A DNA stretch of 64,000 nucleotides from Streptococcus oralis (GTDB lineage: Bacteria; Bacillota; Bacilli; Lactobacillales; Streptococcaceae), in contig NZ_CP097843.1 in the NCBI RefSeq assembly GCF_023611505.1, forward strand, positions 62,001 through 126,000, read 5' to 3'. The notes under the pieces are model-generated. The model was not told the DNA's origin and did no database searches. It saw nothing but the letters and a program-made list of their open reading frames with translations. Positions within the stretch are counted from its first letter, which is position 1. Each line of letters opens with the position of its first letter. This document shows positions 7,261 to 12,787 of this stretch, piece after piece. The translations under genes were made by a program, and so were the position numbers.

Positions 7261-7497
7261 ATGACAGAAAAAGAAATTTTTGACCGTATTGTAACCATTA
7301 TCCAAGAGCGACAGGGAGAGGACTTTGTCGTGACAGAATCTTTGAGTTTGAAAGACGATCTCGATGCGGACTCAGTTGACTTGATGGAGTTCGTCTTGAC
7401 ACTAGAAGATGAATTCGGAATTGAAATCAGTGATGAGGAAATTGACCAACTGCAAAGTGTAGGAGATGTGGTAGCAGTTGTCAAAAGTAAAGAATAG
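7261..7497 (+). CDS. acpP: acyl carrier protein (plsX-linked copy)
   Basis: 78-residue acyl carrier protein, very acidic. The phosphopantetheine attachment serine is S38 in the DADSVDLMEF motif (normally DSLD). It directly follows plsX, so it is probably the ACP that serves phospholipid synthesis; the main fatty-acid-synthesis ACP of streptococci is usually encoded in the fab cluster. A strong terminator starts 2 bases after the stop. Confidence 0.93.
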   Translation: MTEKEIFDRIVTIIQERQGEDFVVTESLSLKDDLDADSVDLMEFVLTLEDEFGIEISDEEIDQLQSVGDVVAVVKSKE

Positions 7498-7564: not shown

Positions 7565-7572
7565 TGCGAATA
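7565..7572 (+). promoter_or_regulatory. candidate SigX (ComX) box upstream of mini-peptide 1
   Basis: TGCGAATA matches 7 of 8 bases of the streptococcal com-box/cin-box TACGAATA, recognised by the competence sigma factor ComX. It ends 31 bases before the ATG at 7604. CGAATA motifs occur at nearly the same distance before the other two mini-peptide genes. Assignment is by pattern only; eight bases are a weak signal by themselves. Confidence 0.35.
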
Positions 7573-7603: not shown

Positions 7604-7654
7604 ATGTATGTTACCGGTTTTTATCCGTGGTTCATTAAGTGGTTTTTAAAATAA
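7604..7654 (+). CDS. 16-residue hydrophobic cationic peptide 1 (W-F-I-K-W-F core)
   Basis: A 17-codon gene with product MYVTGFYPWFIKWFLK, preceded by AAAAAGGAGG 7 bases before the ATG. It is the first of three tandem genes of identical length whose products align without gaps and share W9, F10, [IL]11, K12, W13 and [FY]14. There is no double-glycine or signal-peptide leader, no cysteine and no acidic residue; the charge comes from two lysines. I do not recognise the family. Possible roles are a leaderless bacteriocin, a PSM-like surfactant peptide, a short hydrophobic pheromone, or a regulatory leader ORF. The reading frame and homology between the three are directly visible; function is unknown. 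It lies upstream of double-glycine bacteriocin genes and comAB. Confidence 0.6.
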   Translation: MYVTGFYPWFIKWFLK

Positions 7655-7686
7655 AAATGAATGAGTTGCTCATTTTCGAATTGTTT

Positions 7687-7694
7687 TTCGAATA
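7687..7694 (+). promoter_or_regulatory. candidate SigX (ComX) box upstream of mini-peptide 2
   Basis: TTCGAATA, 7 of 8 bases of TACGAATA, preceded by a T-run and ending 33 bases before the ATG at 7728. A caveat is that TTCGAA also occurs about 10 bases earlier, so part of the motif could belong to a local repeat. Confidence 0.35.
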
Positions 7695-7727
7695 GATAGG
7701 TAAGGAAAAAGGGAAGGAGACTACGCG

Positions 7728-7778
7728 ATGTATTTACCAATCTTATTGCCATGGTTTATCAAATGGTATTTGAAATAA
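7728..7778 (+). CDS. 16-residue hydrophobic cationic peptide 2
   Basis: Product MYLPILLPWFIKWYLK, 17 codons including stop, with GGGAAGGAGA 7 bases before the ATG. Residues 8-13 (PWFIKW) are identical to peptide 1, although codons differ at several positions (CCG/CCA, TTC/TTT, ATT/ATC, AAG/AAA). That synonymous pattern argues for selection on the peptide rather than a chance ORF. No leader or export signal is seen. See peptide 1 for possible roles. Confidence 0.6.
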   Translation: MYLPILLPWFIKWYLK

Positions 7779-7809
7779 ATGAAATTTACCTGTTCATTTT
7801 AAATCACTT

Positions 7810-7817
7810 TTCGAATA
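7810..7817 (+). promoter_or_regulatory. candidate SigX (ComX) box upstream of mini-peptide 3
   Basis: TTCGAATA within CTTTTCGAATAGATAAG, ending 32 bases before the ATG at 7850. It shares 14 bases (TTTTCGAATAGATA) with the site before peptide 2. Confidence 0.35.
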
Positions 7818-7849
7818 GATAAGTGAGAAGAACAGGAGGGAGAGAAAAA

Positions 7850-7900
7850 ATGATTTCAGTTATTTTTCCAATCTGGTTTTTAAAATGGTTTAAAGCCTAG
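7850..7900 (+). CDS. 16-residue hydrophobic cationic peptide 3
   Basis: Product MISVIFPIWFLKWFKA, 17 codons including stop, with AGGAGGGAGA 7-8 bases before the ATG. It is the most divergent of the three, yet it keeps W9, F10, K12 and W13 and has conservative changes at 11 and 14. The next gene, a double-glycine peptide, starts 40 bases later with no terminator between, so transcripts could run through. Confidence 0.6.
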   Translation: MISVIFPIWFLKWFKA

Positions 7901-7940: not shown

Positions 7941-8132
7941 ATGACAAACTTTGACAAAATGGAACAGAACTTTGCAGCTCTTACAGAAGAAGAGTTGACG
8001 GATGTGAATGGGGGATTGATTATTACAGCAGCTGGAATTATTTTAGCAGGAAAAGTAGCAGGTGCTGTGGTTACAATTGGAGGAGCTCTTTATGGAGCAG
8101 GATATGCTATTGGAAAAGCATTGCGACCTTAA
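7941..8132 (+). CDS. double-glycine bacteriocin-like peptide (class IIb/Blp type)
   Basis: 63-residue precursor. The leader MTNFDKMEQNFAALTEEELTDVNGG is of the double-glycine type (L, E/L, V and GG at the expected -12, -8/-7, -4, -2/-1 positions) and is cut by C39-peptidase transporters such as ComA or BlpA. The predicted mature part is 38 residues, starts LIITAAGIILAGK, and is rich in Gly and Ala with GxxxG-like spacing (VAGAVVTIGGALYGAGYAIGKAL), typical of two-peptide pore-forming bacteriocins. An AAAGGAG site precedes the start. The next gene encodes a second such peptide, so the two may act as a pair. Confidence 0.82.
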   Translation: MTNFDKMEQNFAALTEEELTDVNGGLIITAAGIILAGKVAGAVVTIGGALYGAGYAIGKALRP

Positions 8133-8156: not shown

Positions 8157-8339
8157 ATGAAACAATTTCAAGAATTATCTTTTCAAGAACTTGAAGAGGT
8201 TCAAGGCGGTGTTATTACATTAACGATAGGTACGGTAGTGCTTGTAGGCTGGAAAGCAGTAGCAGCTTATGGAGCAGCGGCTACTGTAGCAGGAGGTACA
8301 CTTGGATTGGGAGTCTATAATGGATACAGAGGGCGTTAG
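8157..8339 (+). CDS. double-glycine bacteriocin-like peptide, second component
   Basis: 60-residue precursor with an 18-residue double-glycine leader (MKQFQELSFQELEEVQGG). The mature peptide starts VITLTIGTVVLVGWKA and is Gly/Ala-rich (AAYGAAATVAGGTLGLGVYNGYRGR), a membrane-active bacteriocin profile. An AAAGGAGG site lies upstream. It sits 24 bases after the first peptide and 3 bases before a small membrane protein that may confer immunity. Confidence 0.82.
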   Translation: MKQFQELSFQELEEVQGGVITLTIGTVVLVGWKAVAAYGAAATVAGGTLGLGVYNGYRGR

Positions 8340-8342
8340 ACT

Positions 8343-8567
8343 ATGAACAATCGGAACCTTAATCTCAATACACTCTTACCCAAATTAGCTACTATAGTTC
8401 CTTTCTTGGCTATAGCTCTCAATCTTGTACTTCATGTGATTCGTACAGGTTCATTAGTATCCTTTGATTGGCAATGGACTGTAGTTGGTTTACTTGCTTC
8501 GGGCTATTTTGGTATTTTTTGTAAGGATTTGACGAAAAATAATCAAAACTATAAAAGATCAATCTGA
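8343..8567 (+). CDS. small two-helix membrane protein, possible bacteriocin immunity protein
   Basis: 74 residues with two hydrophobic segments (about 15-31 and 45-61) and a basic C-terminus (KDLTKNNQNYKRSI). It begins 3 bases after the second bacteriocin gene. Position, size and topology resemble small hydrophobic immunity proteins of streptococcal bacteriocin loci, but I recognise no specific family. Function is inferred from context only. Confidence 0.55.
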   Translation: MNNRNLNLNTLLPKLATIVPFLAIALNLVLHVIRTGSLVSFDWQWTVVGLLASGYFGIFCKDLTKNNQNYKRSI

Positions 8568-8629
8568 ATGAAAAGGATTTTATGCATGTAAATGGTGGAG
8601 TTTTCCCGCCTTTCTTTTCAGGTAAATAG
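8555..8629 (+). pseudogene. relic or cryptic double-glycine peptide (mature VFPPFFSGK)
   Basis: An open frame reads KINLNEKDFMHVNGG then VFPPFFSGK and a TAG stop. LNEKDFMHVNGG fits the double-glycine leader pattern at every key position: L at -12, D at -8, F at -7, V at -4, GG at -2/-1. Upstream, an in-frame TAA (8552-8554) occurs before any ATG, GTG or TTG. The only ATG is inside the leader (8582) and lacks a good ribosome binding site. It is therefore most likely the 3' end of a third bacteriocin or pheromone gene that lost its start, or a peptide with an unusual start. Confidence 0.45.
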
Positions 8630-8638
8630 GAGTCTATC

Positions 8639-8827
8639 ATGAAAAAATTCTTATTAGGATTTGCTGAGGGGTATTTTGTCGTATCGATCATTATTTATAT
8701 CGCAACGTATTTGATTATGAAAAATCCGATCAATACCTTGTTTTATCCAGAAACCTATCCAATTCTACTTGGTCTGTTTTATCTAGGATACAAGTACAAA
8801 ACAAAAGAAAGTAAAATAGGGAATTGA
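8639..8827 (+). CDS. small membrane protein of the bacteriocin cluster
   Basis: 62 residues with two hydrophobic segments (FLLGFAEGYFVVSIIIYIATYLIM, then YPILLGLFYLGYKY) and a charged C-terminus. An AGGAG site lies 7-8 bases upstream. No family recognised; it may be an immunity protein or an accessory protein. It directly follows the double-glycine relic, so it may be the immunity partner of that lost peptide (inference). Confidence 0.5.
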   Translation: MKKFLLGFAEGYFVVSIIIYIATYLIMKNPINTLFYPETYPILLGLFYLGYKYKTKESKIGN

Positions 8828-8851
8828 TGAACCATCAGATCGGAGTTTGAG

Positions 8852-9061
8852 ATGAAAGTCGTTCAATTACTACAAAAAGCTTGGCCAGAGTTTATTGTAT
8901 TGTTTAGCTCAATGGCTTATCTAATGATTAGAATTGTGGCTGATGTAAACAAAATAAATTTACCTACATGGTTTGAATGTTTTGATATACCTACGATTTC
9001 ATTATTTTTGATGACCTTTATCTTACTTTATAAAAGTAAAGAAAATATCATTTCAGAATAA
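8852..9061 (+). CDS. small membrane protein of the bacteriocin cluster
   Basis: 69 residues with two hydrophobic stretches (FIVLFSSMAYLMIRIVA and ISLFLMTFILLYK). The ribosome binding site is weaker (GGAG, 11 bases upstream). It is similar in size and topology to its two upstream neighbours and is the last gene before the terminator at 9102. Function unknown; possible immunity protein. Confidence 0.48.
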   Translation: MKVVQLLQKAWPEFIVLFSSMAYLMIRIVADVNKINLPTWFECFDIPTISLFLMTFILLYKSKENIISE

Positions 9062-9226: not shown

Positions 9227-9271
9227 AATCTTACAAAGTTTTTAGAGATTATTAGAAAAAAGGAGATGGAT

Positions 9272-11425
9272 ATGAAATTTGGGAAAAGGCACTATCGTCC
9301 CCAGGTGGATCAGATGGATTGCGGTGTGGCTTCCTTGGCCATGGTCTTTGGCTACTATGGTAGTTATTACTCCTTGGCTCACCTGCGAGAGTTAGCCAAG
9401 ACGACTATGGATGGGACAACTGCTTTGGGTCTTGTCAAGGTGGCAGAAGAAATTGGCTTCGAGACGCGCGCTATCAAAGCGGATATGACGCTCTTTGATC
9501 TGCCTGATTTGACTTTTCCTTTTGTAGCCCATGTGCTCAAGGAAGGGAAATTGCTCCACTATTATGTGGTGATTGGTCAGGACAAGAAGACGATCCACAT
9601 CGCTGATCCAGATCCTAGTGTTAAGCTGACGAAGATTTGCCGTGAGCGATTTGCGCAAGAATGGACAGGGGTCAGTCTCTTTATGGCACCGTCTCCAGAC
9701 TACAAACCTCACAGGGAGAAAAAACAAGGGCTCCTATCCTTCTTGCCAATCTTACTCAAACAGCGTGGCTTAATTACCAATATCGTTCTAGCGACACTCT
9801 TGGTAACCTTGATTAACATTGTGGGTTCTTATTATCTGCAGTCGATCATTGATACCTATGTGCCAGATCAGATGCGTTCGACGCTGGGGATTATTTCTAT
9901 TGGGCTGGTCATCGTCTATATCCTCCAGCAAATCTTGTCCTATGCGCAGGAATATCTTTTACTTGTTCTGGGGCAACGGTTGTCAATTGACGTGATTTTG
10001 TCTTATATCAAGCATGTTTTTCACCTGCCAATGTCCTTTTTCGCGACACGCAGGACAGGGGAAATCGTTTCTCGTTTTACAGATGCTAATAGTATCATTG
10101 ATGCGCTAGCTTCGACCATTCTTTCTATCTTTTTGGATGTGTCAACGATTTTGATTATCTCGCTTGTCTTGTTTTCACAAAATATAACACTCTTTTTCAT
10201 CAGTCTGCTTGCACTTCCCATTTATACAGTGATTATATTTGCCTTTATGAAGCCTTTTGAAAAGATGAATCGGGACACTATGGAAGCCAATGCGGTTCTG
10301 TCTTCTTCTATCATCGAGGACATCAACGGTATTGAGACCATTAAGTCTTTGACTAGTGAAAGTTCACGCTATCAAAAGATTGATAAGGAATTTGTGGCTT
10401 ATCTGAAAAAATCCTTTACCTACAGTCGGGCAGAAAGCCAGCAAAAGGCTCTGAAAAAAGTTGCCCAGCTTCTTCTCAATGTTGCCGTTCTTTGGATGGG
10501 AGCTGTTCTGGTCATGGATGGCAAGATGAGTTTGGGGCAATTGATTACCTATAATACTTTGCTTGTTTACTTTACCAATCCTTTGGAAAATATCATCAAC
10601 CTGCAAACCAAACTTCAAACAGCGCAGGTTGCCAATAATCGCTTAAATGAGGTTTATCTGGTAGCTTCGGAGTTTGAGGAGAAGAAAACAGTAGAAGATT
10701 TGAGCATGATGAAAGGGGATATGGCTTTCAAGCAGGTTCACTACAAGTATGGCTACGGTCGAGATGTTTTGTCGGATATCAATTTGACCATTCCGCAAGG
10801 TTCTAAAGTGGCTTTCGTGGGGATTTCAGGGTCAGGCAAGACCACCTTGGCCAAGATGATGGTTAACTTTTACGACCCTAGTCAGGGAGAGATTAGTCTG
10901 GGTGGTGTCAATCTTAATCAGATTGATAAAAAAGCCTTGCGCCAGCATATCAACTATTTGCCTCAACAGCCCTATGTCTTTAACGGAACGATTTTGGAGA
11001 ATCTTCTCCTTGGAGCCAAGGAGGGGACGACACAGGAGGATATTCTGCGAGCAGTTGAATTGGCAGAGATTCGGGAGGATATCGAGCGGATGCCACTGAA
11101 TTACCAGACAGAATTGACTTCGGATGGCGCAGGTATTTCTGGTGGCCAACGGCAGCGAATCGCTCTGGCGCGAGCTCTTTTAACGGATGCACCTGTTTTG
11201 ATATTGGACGAAGCGACCAGCAGTCTGGATATCTTGACAGAGAAGCGGATTGTGGATAATCTTATGGCTTTAGACAAGACCTTGATTTTCATTGCCCACC
11301 GCTTGACCATTGCTGAGCGGACAGAGAAAGTTGTTGTCTTGGATCAGGGCAAGATTGTCGAAGAGGGAAATCATGTGGACTTACTGGCTCGAGGTGGATT
11401 TTACGCCCATTTGGTCAATAGCTAG
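9272..11425 (+). CDS. comA: competence peptide ABC exporter with C39 peptidase, ComA
   Basis: 717-residue transporter that cleaves the double-glycine leader of the competence pheromone and exports the mature peptide; it can also process related bacteriocins. Domains in order: C39 peptidase at residues 1-150 (catalytic C17 in MDCGVASLAMVFGYYG, His in HYYVVIG, Asp in IADPDP); six-helix membrane domain at about 165-450; ATPase with Walker A GISGSGKTT, signature SGGQRQRIALARALL, Walker B LILDEATSSLD and the switch His in IAHRLT. The first in-frame ATG (9266) abuts the AAAAAGGAG site, so the second (9272) is chosen, which gives the known ComA length. comB follows after 12 bases. Confidence 0.96.
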   Translation: MKFGKRHYRPQVDQMDCGVASLAMVFGYYGSYYSLAHLRELAKTTMDGTTALGLVKVAEEIGFETRAIKADMTLFDLPDLTFPFVAHVLKEGKLLHYYVVIGQDKKTIHIADPDPSVKLTKICRERFAQEWTGVSLFMAPSPDYKPHREKKQGLLSFLPILLKQRGLITNIVLATLLVTLINIVGSYYLQSIIDTYVPDQMRSTLGIISIGLVIVYILQQILSYAQEYLLLVLGQRLSIDVILSYIKHVFHLPMSFFATRRTGEIVSRFTDANSIIDALASTILSIFLDVSTILIISLVLFSQNITLFFISLLALPIYTVIIFAFMKPFEKMNRDTMEANAVLSSSIIEDINGIETIKSLTSESSRYQKIDKEFVAYLKKSFTYSRAESQQKALKKVAQLLLNVAVLWMGAVLVMDGKMSLGQLITYNTLLVYFTNPLENIINLQTKLQTAQVANNRLNEVYLVASEFEEKKTVEDLSMMKGDMAFKQVHYKYGYGRDVLSDINLTIPQGSKVAFVGISGSGKTTLAKMMVNFYDPSQGEISLGGVNLNQIDKKALRQHINYLPQQPYVFNGTILENLLLGAKEGTTQEDILRAVELAEIREDIERMPLNYQTELTSDGAGISGGQRQRIALARALLTDAPVLILDEATSSLDILTEKRIVDNLMALDKTLIFIAHRLTIAERTEKVVVLDQGKIVEEGNHVDLLARGGFYAHLVNS

Positions 11426-11437
11426 AAAGAGGAGAAG

Positions 11438-12787
11438 ATGCAACCAGAATTTTTAGAAAGTGCGGAGTTTTACCATCGTCGTTACCATAATTTTTCCAGT
11501 CGAGTGATTTTACCTATGTCACTTCTGCTCGTGTTTTTACTTGGATTTGCAGTTTTTGCAGAGAAGGAGATTAGTTTGTCTACCAGAGCGACTGTCGAAC
11601 CTAGTCGGATCATTGCCAACATCCAGTCAACTAGCAATCAACGGATTGTGGCCAACTATCTGGAAGAAAACAAGTTGGTCAAGCAAGGCGAACTACTCGT
11701 TGAGTACCAGCAAGGGGCGGAGGCTGTCCAGGTCGAAGCATATGCCAGTCAATTGGAGATGTTAAAGGATCAAAAAAAGCAGTTGGGTTATTTGCAATCC
11801 AGTTTGAAAGAGGGGAGTGATCAATTTCCAGAGGCGGATAAGTTTGGATATCAGGAGATGTTTCGAGACTATCTCAGCCAAGCTAGTAGTCTGAGGAGCA
11901 ATGTTTCACAGCAAAATGAGACCATCGCGTCCCAGAATGCAGCGGCTAGTCAAACCCAAGCTGAAATCGGGAACCTCATCAGTCAAACAGAGGCTAAAAT
12001 TCGCGATTACCAGACAGCTAAGTCGGCTATTGAAACAGGTGCTTCCTTGACCAGTCAGAATCTAGCCTACTCTCTCTACCAGTCCTACAAGTCTCAGAGG
12101 GAGGAAAATCCGCAAGCTAAGGCTCAGGCTGTTGCACAGGTTGAAGCACAGCTTTCTCAGTTAGAATCTAGTCTTGCTACTTATCGTGTTCAGTATGCAG
12201 GTTCGGGAACCCAGCAAGCCTATGCAACGGGACTGGATAGTCAACTGGAATCGCTCAAGTCCCAGCACCTAGTCAAAGTCGGTCAGGAATTAACTCTTTT
12301 GGATCAGAAAATTTTAGAAGCAGAGTCGGGTAAGAAAGTCCAAGGAGGTCTCCTAGAGAAGGGGAAGATTACAGCAAGCGAGGATGGGGTGCTTCACCTT
12401 AATCCTGAGACCAGTGAATCTACGATGGCTGCAGAAGGAACCCTGCTAGCCCAACTCTATCCATCTTTGGAAAAAGAAGGAAAAACCAAACTCACAGCCT
12501 ATCTCAGTTCAAAAGATGTTGCTAGAGTTAAGATTGGAGACTCTGTCCGTTATACTACGACTAATGATGCGAAGAATCAAATTTTCCTGGATTCCACTAT
12601 TACAAGTATTGATGCGACAGCTACAAAGACTGAAAAAGGAAATTTCTTTAAAATTGAGGCGGAAACCCATCTGCCCCCTGAGCAGGCTGCAAAACTTCGC
12701 TATGGCTTAGAAGGCCGCCTGCAGATGATCACAGGAAAGAAAAGTTATCTCCGTTATTTTTGGGATCAATTTTTGAATAAAGGCTAA
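11438..12787 (+). CDS. comB: competence exporter accessory protein ComB
   Basis: 449-residue membrane-fusion-type partner of ComA. It has an N-terminal cytoplasmic stretch, one transmembrane helix (about residues 22-42, [19 protein letters not shown]), then an extracellular region with long Gln/Ser/Ala-rich coiled coil (about 80-290) flanked by lipoyl-like halves ([22 protein letters not shown] and [11 protein letters not shown]). It completes the ComAB secretion unit. It shares the ComE-controlled transcript with comA and ends before a terminator at 12819. Confidence 0.95.

Follow-up and report, generated by a model that had tools for sequence, protein, structure and literature searches.

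Short conserved ORFs behind individual SigX boxes in the competence-associated bacteriocin locus of Streptococcus oralis and its relatives

The closest described system to the locus analysed here is the competence-associated bacteriocin (cab) locus. In S. mitis G22, expression of cabABC requires SigX and is lost in sigX1 sigX2 mutants. The G22 cab promoter contains five SigX boxes, and reporter expression falls once four of the five are removed (PMC13059744). The consensus of the SigX (ComX) box is TMCGAATA, found inside a longer T-rich/A-rich motif (PMC6560143). The known cab loci hold 2 to 38 boxes (38 in one strain), box number rises with locus size, and the multiple boxes have been interpreted as accumulated promoter repeats that amplify expression (PMC13059744). 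In another study, the multiple SigX boxes at the locus were called without clear explanation (PMC6001120). The Cab bacteriocins are highly diverse (95 variants), the cab region is repetitive and recombinogenic, and cab is absent from S. pneumoniae; the bacteriocins were sought among ORFs of 100-300 nt with a double-glycine (GG) motif (PMC13059744). Deletion of the S. mitis-specific SigX genes, apparently including the cab operon, left transformation unchanged (PMC6001120). Cab killing is contact-dependent, as published.

The S. oralis locus is like those of three cab papers (PMC13059744, PMC11921387, PMC6001120) in its location from acpP to comAB, its TTCGAATA boxes and its GG bacteriocins. 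In the available parts of these papers, the boxes figure as repeated promoters, and no 16-residue ORF behind each box is mentioned. One of the three looked for unannotated small ORFs, and the part available contains no report of the ORFs described here (PMC11921387). The SigX control in print covers the cab promoter and operon, not these ORFs themselves (PMC13059744, PMC6001120). What was previously known is the cab locus, its boxes and its SigX control; what is new here is the reading of "multiple SigX boxes" as micro-genes. Topic searches of the literature, by title and abstract start, yielded no description of the peptides, and six fragments of their sequences had no match in a search of the main texts of papers. 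Thus, the original prediction that the peptides are undescribed agrees with the papers searched, and its suggestion that they are too short for usual scans is borne out by the published size range of 100-300 nt (PMC13059744).

The window, the whole 64-kb (64,000-nt) stretch of S. oralis DNA that we analysed, has the following features in this region.

7261..7497, + strand: acpP, the 5' border of the locus, named by eye and from the published plsX-acpP..comAB borders (PMC13059744)
7499-7529: terminator-like hairpin after acpP
7565..7572, + strand: SigX/ComX box 1, TGCGAATA, 31 nt 5' of ORF 1; extended ComX motif 25/29
7604..7654, + strand: ORF of unit 1, MYVTGFYPWFIKWFLK, type U1, with an RBS; related units occur in other loci
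7687..7694, + strand: SigX box 2, TTCGAATA, 33 nt 5' of ORF 2; extended motif 26/29
7728..7778, + strand: ORF of unit 2, MYLPILLPWFIKWYLK, type U2, with an RBS
7810..7817, + strand: SigX box 3, TTCGAATA, 32 nt 5' of ORF 3; extended motif 25/29
7850..7900, + strand: ORF of unit 3, MISVIFPIWFLKWFKA, type U3, separated by 40 nt from the first bacteriocin gene
7941..8132, + strand: GG prepeptide of a Cab-type bacteriocin; TIGR03949, E 3.2e-7, above cut-off
8157..8339, + strand: second GG prepeptide; Pfam Bacteriocin_IIc, 35.2 bits, above cut-off; also TIGR03949
8343-8567, 8639-8827 and 8852-9061, + strand: three small hydrophobic proteins, putative immunity or accessory proteins from their position
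9266-11425, + strand: comA, peptide cleavage and export; TIGR01193 above cut-off
11438-12787, + strand: comB, peptide cleavage and export; TIGR01000 above cut-off

As the original prediction had it, three tandem 51-nt ORFs of 16 residues each are present, and all three have a good ribosome binding site (RBS) and share W9-F10-x-K12-W13. They also adjoin two GG bacteriocin genes and comAB, as the family matches listed above confirm; they lie on the + strand, 3' of acpP. The first prepeptide (7941..8132) falls just under the cut-off of Pfam Bacteriocin_IIc (26.9 bits, cut-off 27.1), and both prepeptides are class-IIb-like. With its GG bacteriocin genes between acpP and comAB, the interval is the known cab locus. 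The small hydrophobic ORFs at 8343-9061 matched no Pfam or NCBIfam family above its cut-off. What the original prediction overlooked is that the locus is cab, that each ORF has its own SigX box, and that the array is ordered; the peptide family, the selection on it and its location stand.

Each unit in the window consists of a SigX box, an RBS and an ORF, and is repeated every ~123 nt (box to box, 122 and 123 nt). The box TNCGAATA precedes all three ORFs, with a gap of 31-33 nt to the ATG. On the + strand of the window, the only three matches to TNCGAATA are these boxes. Both strands together have 9 matches, with 7.35 expected, so the count by itself is not significant. Boxes were scored against the 29-position extended ComX motif (PMC6560143), which is too weak to be the sole predictor: 38 29-mers in the window reach at least 24/29, and the scores of 25-26/29 of the array boxes are also reached at other sites. 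Transcription from box 3 probably extends into the bacteriocin gene at 7941..8132.

We compared the window with other genomes in 81 loci, that is, the window and 80 acpP-anchored stretches of at most 6.4 kb each. The stretches came from 83 other genomes top-ranked by their acpP match, 80 of which gave one (not G104, G233 and G128). The stretches reach comA, located by tblastn, in 51 of the 81 loci. There are 184 box-headed units, 183 of them complete, in 71 of the 81 loci within the stretches examined. The incomplete ORF was left out of the counts of length, pN/pS, charge and order (183), and its unit is included in the counts of co-occurrence and terminators (184). The gap from box to ATG is 30-35 nt in 178 units, and the octamer begins with CT or AT in 33 of the 184 CGAATA-headed units. 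The complete ORFs measure 51 nt in 164 of 183 cases, 54 nt in 14 and 57 nt in 5. The distance from one ATG to the next ranges over 113-131 nt, while ORF length stays mostly at 51 nt. A test for terminators between units gave a mean z of -0.89 without an alignment consensus.

The peptides fall into four types that are arranged in order. Type U1 reads MYVTG or MYMPI..PWFIKWFLK, type U2 is MYLPILLPWFIKWYLK, and type U3 begins with MISV or MIISV and continues ..WFLKWFKA-like. Type U4 (MYLPI[FL]YPWFTKLFFK and kin) is expanded among S. mitis-like loci. U1 lies within 200 nt of acpP in 43 of 44 cases, and the next element after these 44 is U2 in 27, U3 in 10, U4 in 3, a GG gene in 1 and nothing near in 3. 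At the other end, a GG bacteriocin gene lies 32-44 nt 3' of U3 in 38 of 38 cases. Among the 51 loci that reach comA, 47 have both box-headed units and GG genes, none has units only, one has GG genes only and three have neither. One of these three, L193, has a U3-type ORF whose box is altered and no GG gene found in the locus, so the linkage between units and GG genes is not absolute. The array and the Cab genes could also be lost jointly merely as one block.

Comparison of variants indicates that the peptide sequence is under selection. In-frame pN/pS over pairs of distinct ORFs is 0.19 for U1 (22 variants), 0.35 for U2 (9 variants), 0.35 and 0.50 for U3 of 16 and 17 aa, and 0.32 and 0.25 for U4 of 16 and 18 aa. 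For 71 distinct 16-aa ORFs with W9, pN/pS is 0.53 in frame and 1.14 and 1.05 in the shifted frames; K12 is present in 66 of these 71, a set selected for W9. Within types, shifted-frame values range from 0.69 to 6.2, with exceptions for 16-aa U3 in frame +1 (0.45) and 17-aa U3 in frame +2 (0.32), and frame +2 of U2 is without synonymous change. In 17-aa U3, for which the three frames give 0.50, 0.69 and 0.32, the in-frame value is not the lowest. Because pairs of ORFs share ancestry, each variant was also counted once. In this test 46 of 118 changes are synonymous, with 28.1 expected (binomial P 1.8e-4, assuming a transition/transversion weight of 3); by type, p is below 0.05 only for U1 (p 0.015) and the 18-aa set (p 0.044). 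The low in-frame pN/pS and the 184 units in the 81 loci uphold the claim that the peptides form a genuine family kept by purifying selection, and the ORFs of the units are probably translated as late-competence micropeptides.

Decay occurs as well. In 20 loci, at least 22 units survive as broken remnants that have lost the start, stop early or follow a decayed box, and 19 of these are of type U3; the remnant search used selected strings, so the number is a lower bound. One remnant, in L130, keeps a GTG start and may use it. Single units are dispensable, since these broken remnants exist. On whether frames break or Ka/Ks approaches 1 in related strains, the point on which the original prediction was to be judged, the comparison mainly favours coding, and broken copies do exist. 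As far as these sequences can tell, the peptide sequence is selected, yet the last unit is often lost. Eight intact family ORFs lie behind an altered box with no CGAATA core (L118, L120, L122, L124, L134, L184, L185 and L193), and the first ORF of L164 is a ninth intact ORF without a box. In seven loci (L125, L131, L144, L147, L153, L156 and L168) there is an apparently shared U3 deletion with the decayed box CTCAAATA, which suggests that the unit was lost once, in an S. mitis-like lineage.

The array is specific as a composite. The codon pattern TGGTTYNTNAARTGG for W-F-x-K-W alone matches 123 of 147 Streptococcus genomes, and controls also match often. We therefore adopted a composite pattern of box, gap, ATG and motif. 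This pattern matches 80 of 284 Streptococcus genomes, and its reversed control matches none among the results listed; four of the 80 (G020, G074, G250 and G015) are single matches without the architecture of a unit. The combination is specific within the genus Streptococcus. At the level of the order, 15 of 295 genomes match: seven Streptococcus with units, G074, and seven non-Streptococcus genomes with one match each. These last eight are chance matches; the reversed control matches in 7 genomes, alike at chance level. In a collection of 84,980 species, which may lack the window itself and its nearest records, at least 80 records match, and 21 of the matches listed are Streptococcus by title. 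The listed Streptococcus records include S. mitis, S. oralis, S. infantis and S. pseudopneumoniae, and two carry the label S. pneumoniae (SMRU824 and 19F, labels as given). The peptide is present in 20 of the 21, and its CGAATA begins 37-40 nt upstream of the ATG except in L045 (CGAATA 31 nt before an upstream ATG, peptide of 18 aa); the sequence of the remaining record, L086, runs into Ns. The other 59 records listed have unrelated ORFs or none.

The row of units is common in the closest relatives: of the 84 genomes ranked best by acpP match, 77 have it. In four of the carriers (G080, G095, G196 and G197) the units lie outside the stretch examined or on another contig, and in G104 and G233 they were found by the pattern searches. 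No box-headed units were found in G045 (where the stretch stops at a contig end), G074, G199, G079, G039, G275 and G128 (pattern search only), although G275 retains the U3-type ORF of L193. The rio3 and rio4 genes of S. pneumoniae D39 are, like the units, tiny ORFs in the acpP-comA interval (PMC9426450), but the sequences of rio3 (MNRNLERCYLF, 11 aa) and rio4 are unrelated to the units. A rio3 start is present in 14 of the 81 loci, 13 of which also have units. The unit-free locus of G039 contains a rio3 start and a gene that we take to be BlpU-like. This locus is probably pneumococcal, which agrees with the published finding that S. pneumoniae lacks cab (PMC13059744).

The unit peptides have no leader, and most have Lys close to the C-terminus. 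Net charge is +2 in 169 of the 183 peptides, +1 in 2 and 0 in 12. In six peptides for which properties were computed, there are 4-7 aromatic residues each, and Wimley-White interface energies are -5.9 to -7.4 kcal/mol. With ORFs of 51-57 nt and no GG leader, the peptides do not fit the description of Cab bacteriocins. ComA of the window carries a GG-type C39 peptidase, the unit peptides lack a GG leader, and we recognised no dedicated exporter for leaderless peptides in the window locus. We know of no such exporter at the cab locus. The cib genes encode bacteriocins with a GG leader, which the units do not have. CibAB, a two-peptide bacteriocin of S. pneumoniae, is late-competence and ComX-driven, like the units (PMC6560143 Table 3).

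We postulate, tentatively and at somewhat less than even confidence, that the units form a SigX micro-gene array whose peptides are membrane-active helpers or effectors of Cab predation at the envelope. Upon entry into competence, SigX would transcribe the units, each a SigX promoter, an RBS and an ORF of 16-17 codons, and transcripts from the last unit would run on into the GG Cab bacteriocin genes. The leaderless, mostly cationic and aromatic products would partition into membranes soon after synthesis, with the start Met kept. They might act at the producer's own envelope or, once released, on neighbours, in either case aiding Cab predation. The units are conserved beside hypervariable Cab peptides, and we therefore favour an interaction with some constant cellular component over an arms-race toxin. 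A more specific version, which we think improbable, makes the unit peptides a missing partner of Cab: short unprocessed membrane peptides that would hold or present Cab at the producer surface. If true, this would help explain contact-dependent killing, and the length of the array would set its strength. Should every box indeed precede a conserved micro-gene, the late-competence regulon of the mitis group would contain an overlooked peptide family. Published promoter truncations at the cab locus may then also have deleted peptide genes, in G22 provided that units are present there (PMC13059744).

Other explanations have to be weighed against a membrane-active role in predation. The locus could be an array of promoters in which the ORFs act as short leaders whose translation protects or tunes cab mRNA, with little part played by the peptide. 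The published five-box promoter that is stronger than one box, the rise of box number with locus size (PMC13059744), the placement of all 38 U3 units 32-44 nt upstream of a GG gene and the joint presence of units and GG genes in most loci all fit this. However, selection acts on amino acids beyond an open frame (pN/pS 0.19-0.50, K12 in 66/71), position-specific peptide types are kept over many loci, and intact ORFs persist behind altered boxes in eight loci, so that we regard this explanation as unlikely, if worth keeping in view. By analogy with micropeptides in the style of TisB and Ibs, the products might instead be self-acting competence peptides that depolarise or growth-arrest the producer from inside and time competence rather than kill neighbours. 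Their leaderless, hydrophobic character, the Lys near the C-terminus in most and the SigX promoters would suit such a role, as would conservation of the peptides alongside 95 Cab variants (PMC13059744). Yet among the 51 loci reaching comA, box-headed units occur only alongside GG genes, and Rfam, the one search bearing on a type I antitoxin RNA, had no match in the window; we consider a self-acting role rather doubtful.

Among the roles suggested in the original prediction, which also include PSM-like surfactants and hydrophobic pheromones, an extracellular leaderless bacteriocin of several peptides appears to be a poor candidate as well. In its favour, several similar cationic, Trp- and Lys-containing peptides without a leader lie within a bacteriocin locus, and multi-peptide leaderless bacteriocins exist: aureocin A70, garvicin KS and the cereucins likewise consist of similar cationic leaderless peptides encoded side by side (PMC6131525). 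However, aureocin A70 and garvicin KS have 30-34 residues, and the table rows consulted in that source span 26-44, whereas the unit peptides have 16-17 (18 with an upstream start) and a charge of +2 only (PMC6131525). Unlike the aureocin A70/garvicin KS type, the units have an alternative-sigma promoter for each ORF; moreover, no dedicated exporter was recognised in the window locus, and the sequences are conserved, not diversifying. That the units are non-coding or decaying repeats whose likeness reflects recent DNA duplication seems very improbable. Remnants do exist in a repetitive, recombinogenic region (PMC13059744), but this reading has against it the synonymous excess, the 51-nt length kept in 164 of 183 ORFs despite a varying period and the low in-frame pN/pS.

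Two published SigX boxes appear to have counterparts among the loci. The box of SMSK321_1305 (mature part 40 aa) is at -229 nt, and that of SM12261_0044 (mature part 20 aa) is at -33 (PMC6001120). In seven loci, the last intact unit is a U2 whose box sits exactly 229 nt upstream of a GG gene, and the mature part encoded by that gene is 40 aa in six of the seven. Because this distance recurs, a unit ORF is probably part of the induced SK321 transcript. Outside the units, 11 boxes precede a GG prepeptide by 33-35 nt, and a further 61 CGAATA sites have neither a unit nor such a gene; many of the 61 are AACGAATA outside the array, and others head broken units. The GG prepeptide MKEHYYGFVELTSEELTDIQGG lies 33-35 nt behind a unit-type SigX box in L119, L121, L122, L141, L142, L148, L151, L152, L157, L162 and L163. 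Its mature part has 20 residues, ENWTKTLVDWYIGFRRGFGF and variants, in 12 of 12 copies. This slot is a unit-type promoter with another short aromatic, basic peptide. The -33 box of SM12261_0044 would fit it, judging from distance and mature length.

Second unit arrays are found deeper inside the cab cluster in L122 (~2648-2898) and L139 (~1926-2049), and both end in U3. From these second arrays, we suspect that bacteriocin clusters may grow by modules of an array and bacteriocin genes. A pheromone of the Rgg/SHP type is disfavoured by the tandem multi-copy ORFs and, in the window, by the lack of any regulator-sized ORF from acpP to comA, where the adjacent Rgg-type receptor gene of an Rgg/SHP or ComS pheromone would be expected. 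The exception to this absence is a kinase/regulator pair within the acpP-comA interval of the S. mitis-like L144. There (L144:838-4422), acpP and the array are ~4 kb apart, and between them are genes for a choline-binding-type repeat protein and for the histidine kinase/response regulator pair, all named by eye. Where a locus has a gap of this kind, it often has two GG-leader ORFs ending in LT[PSL]EVL[EK]EVNGG.
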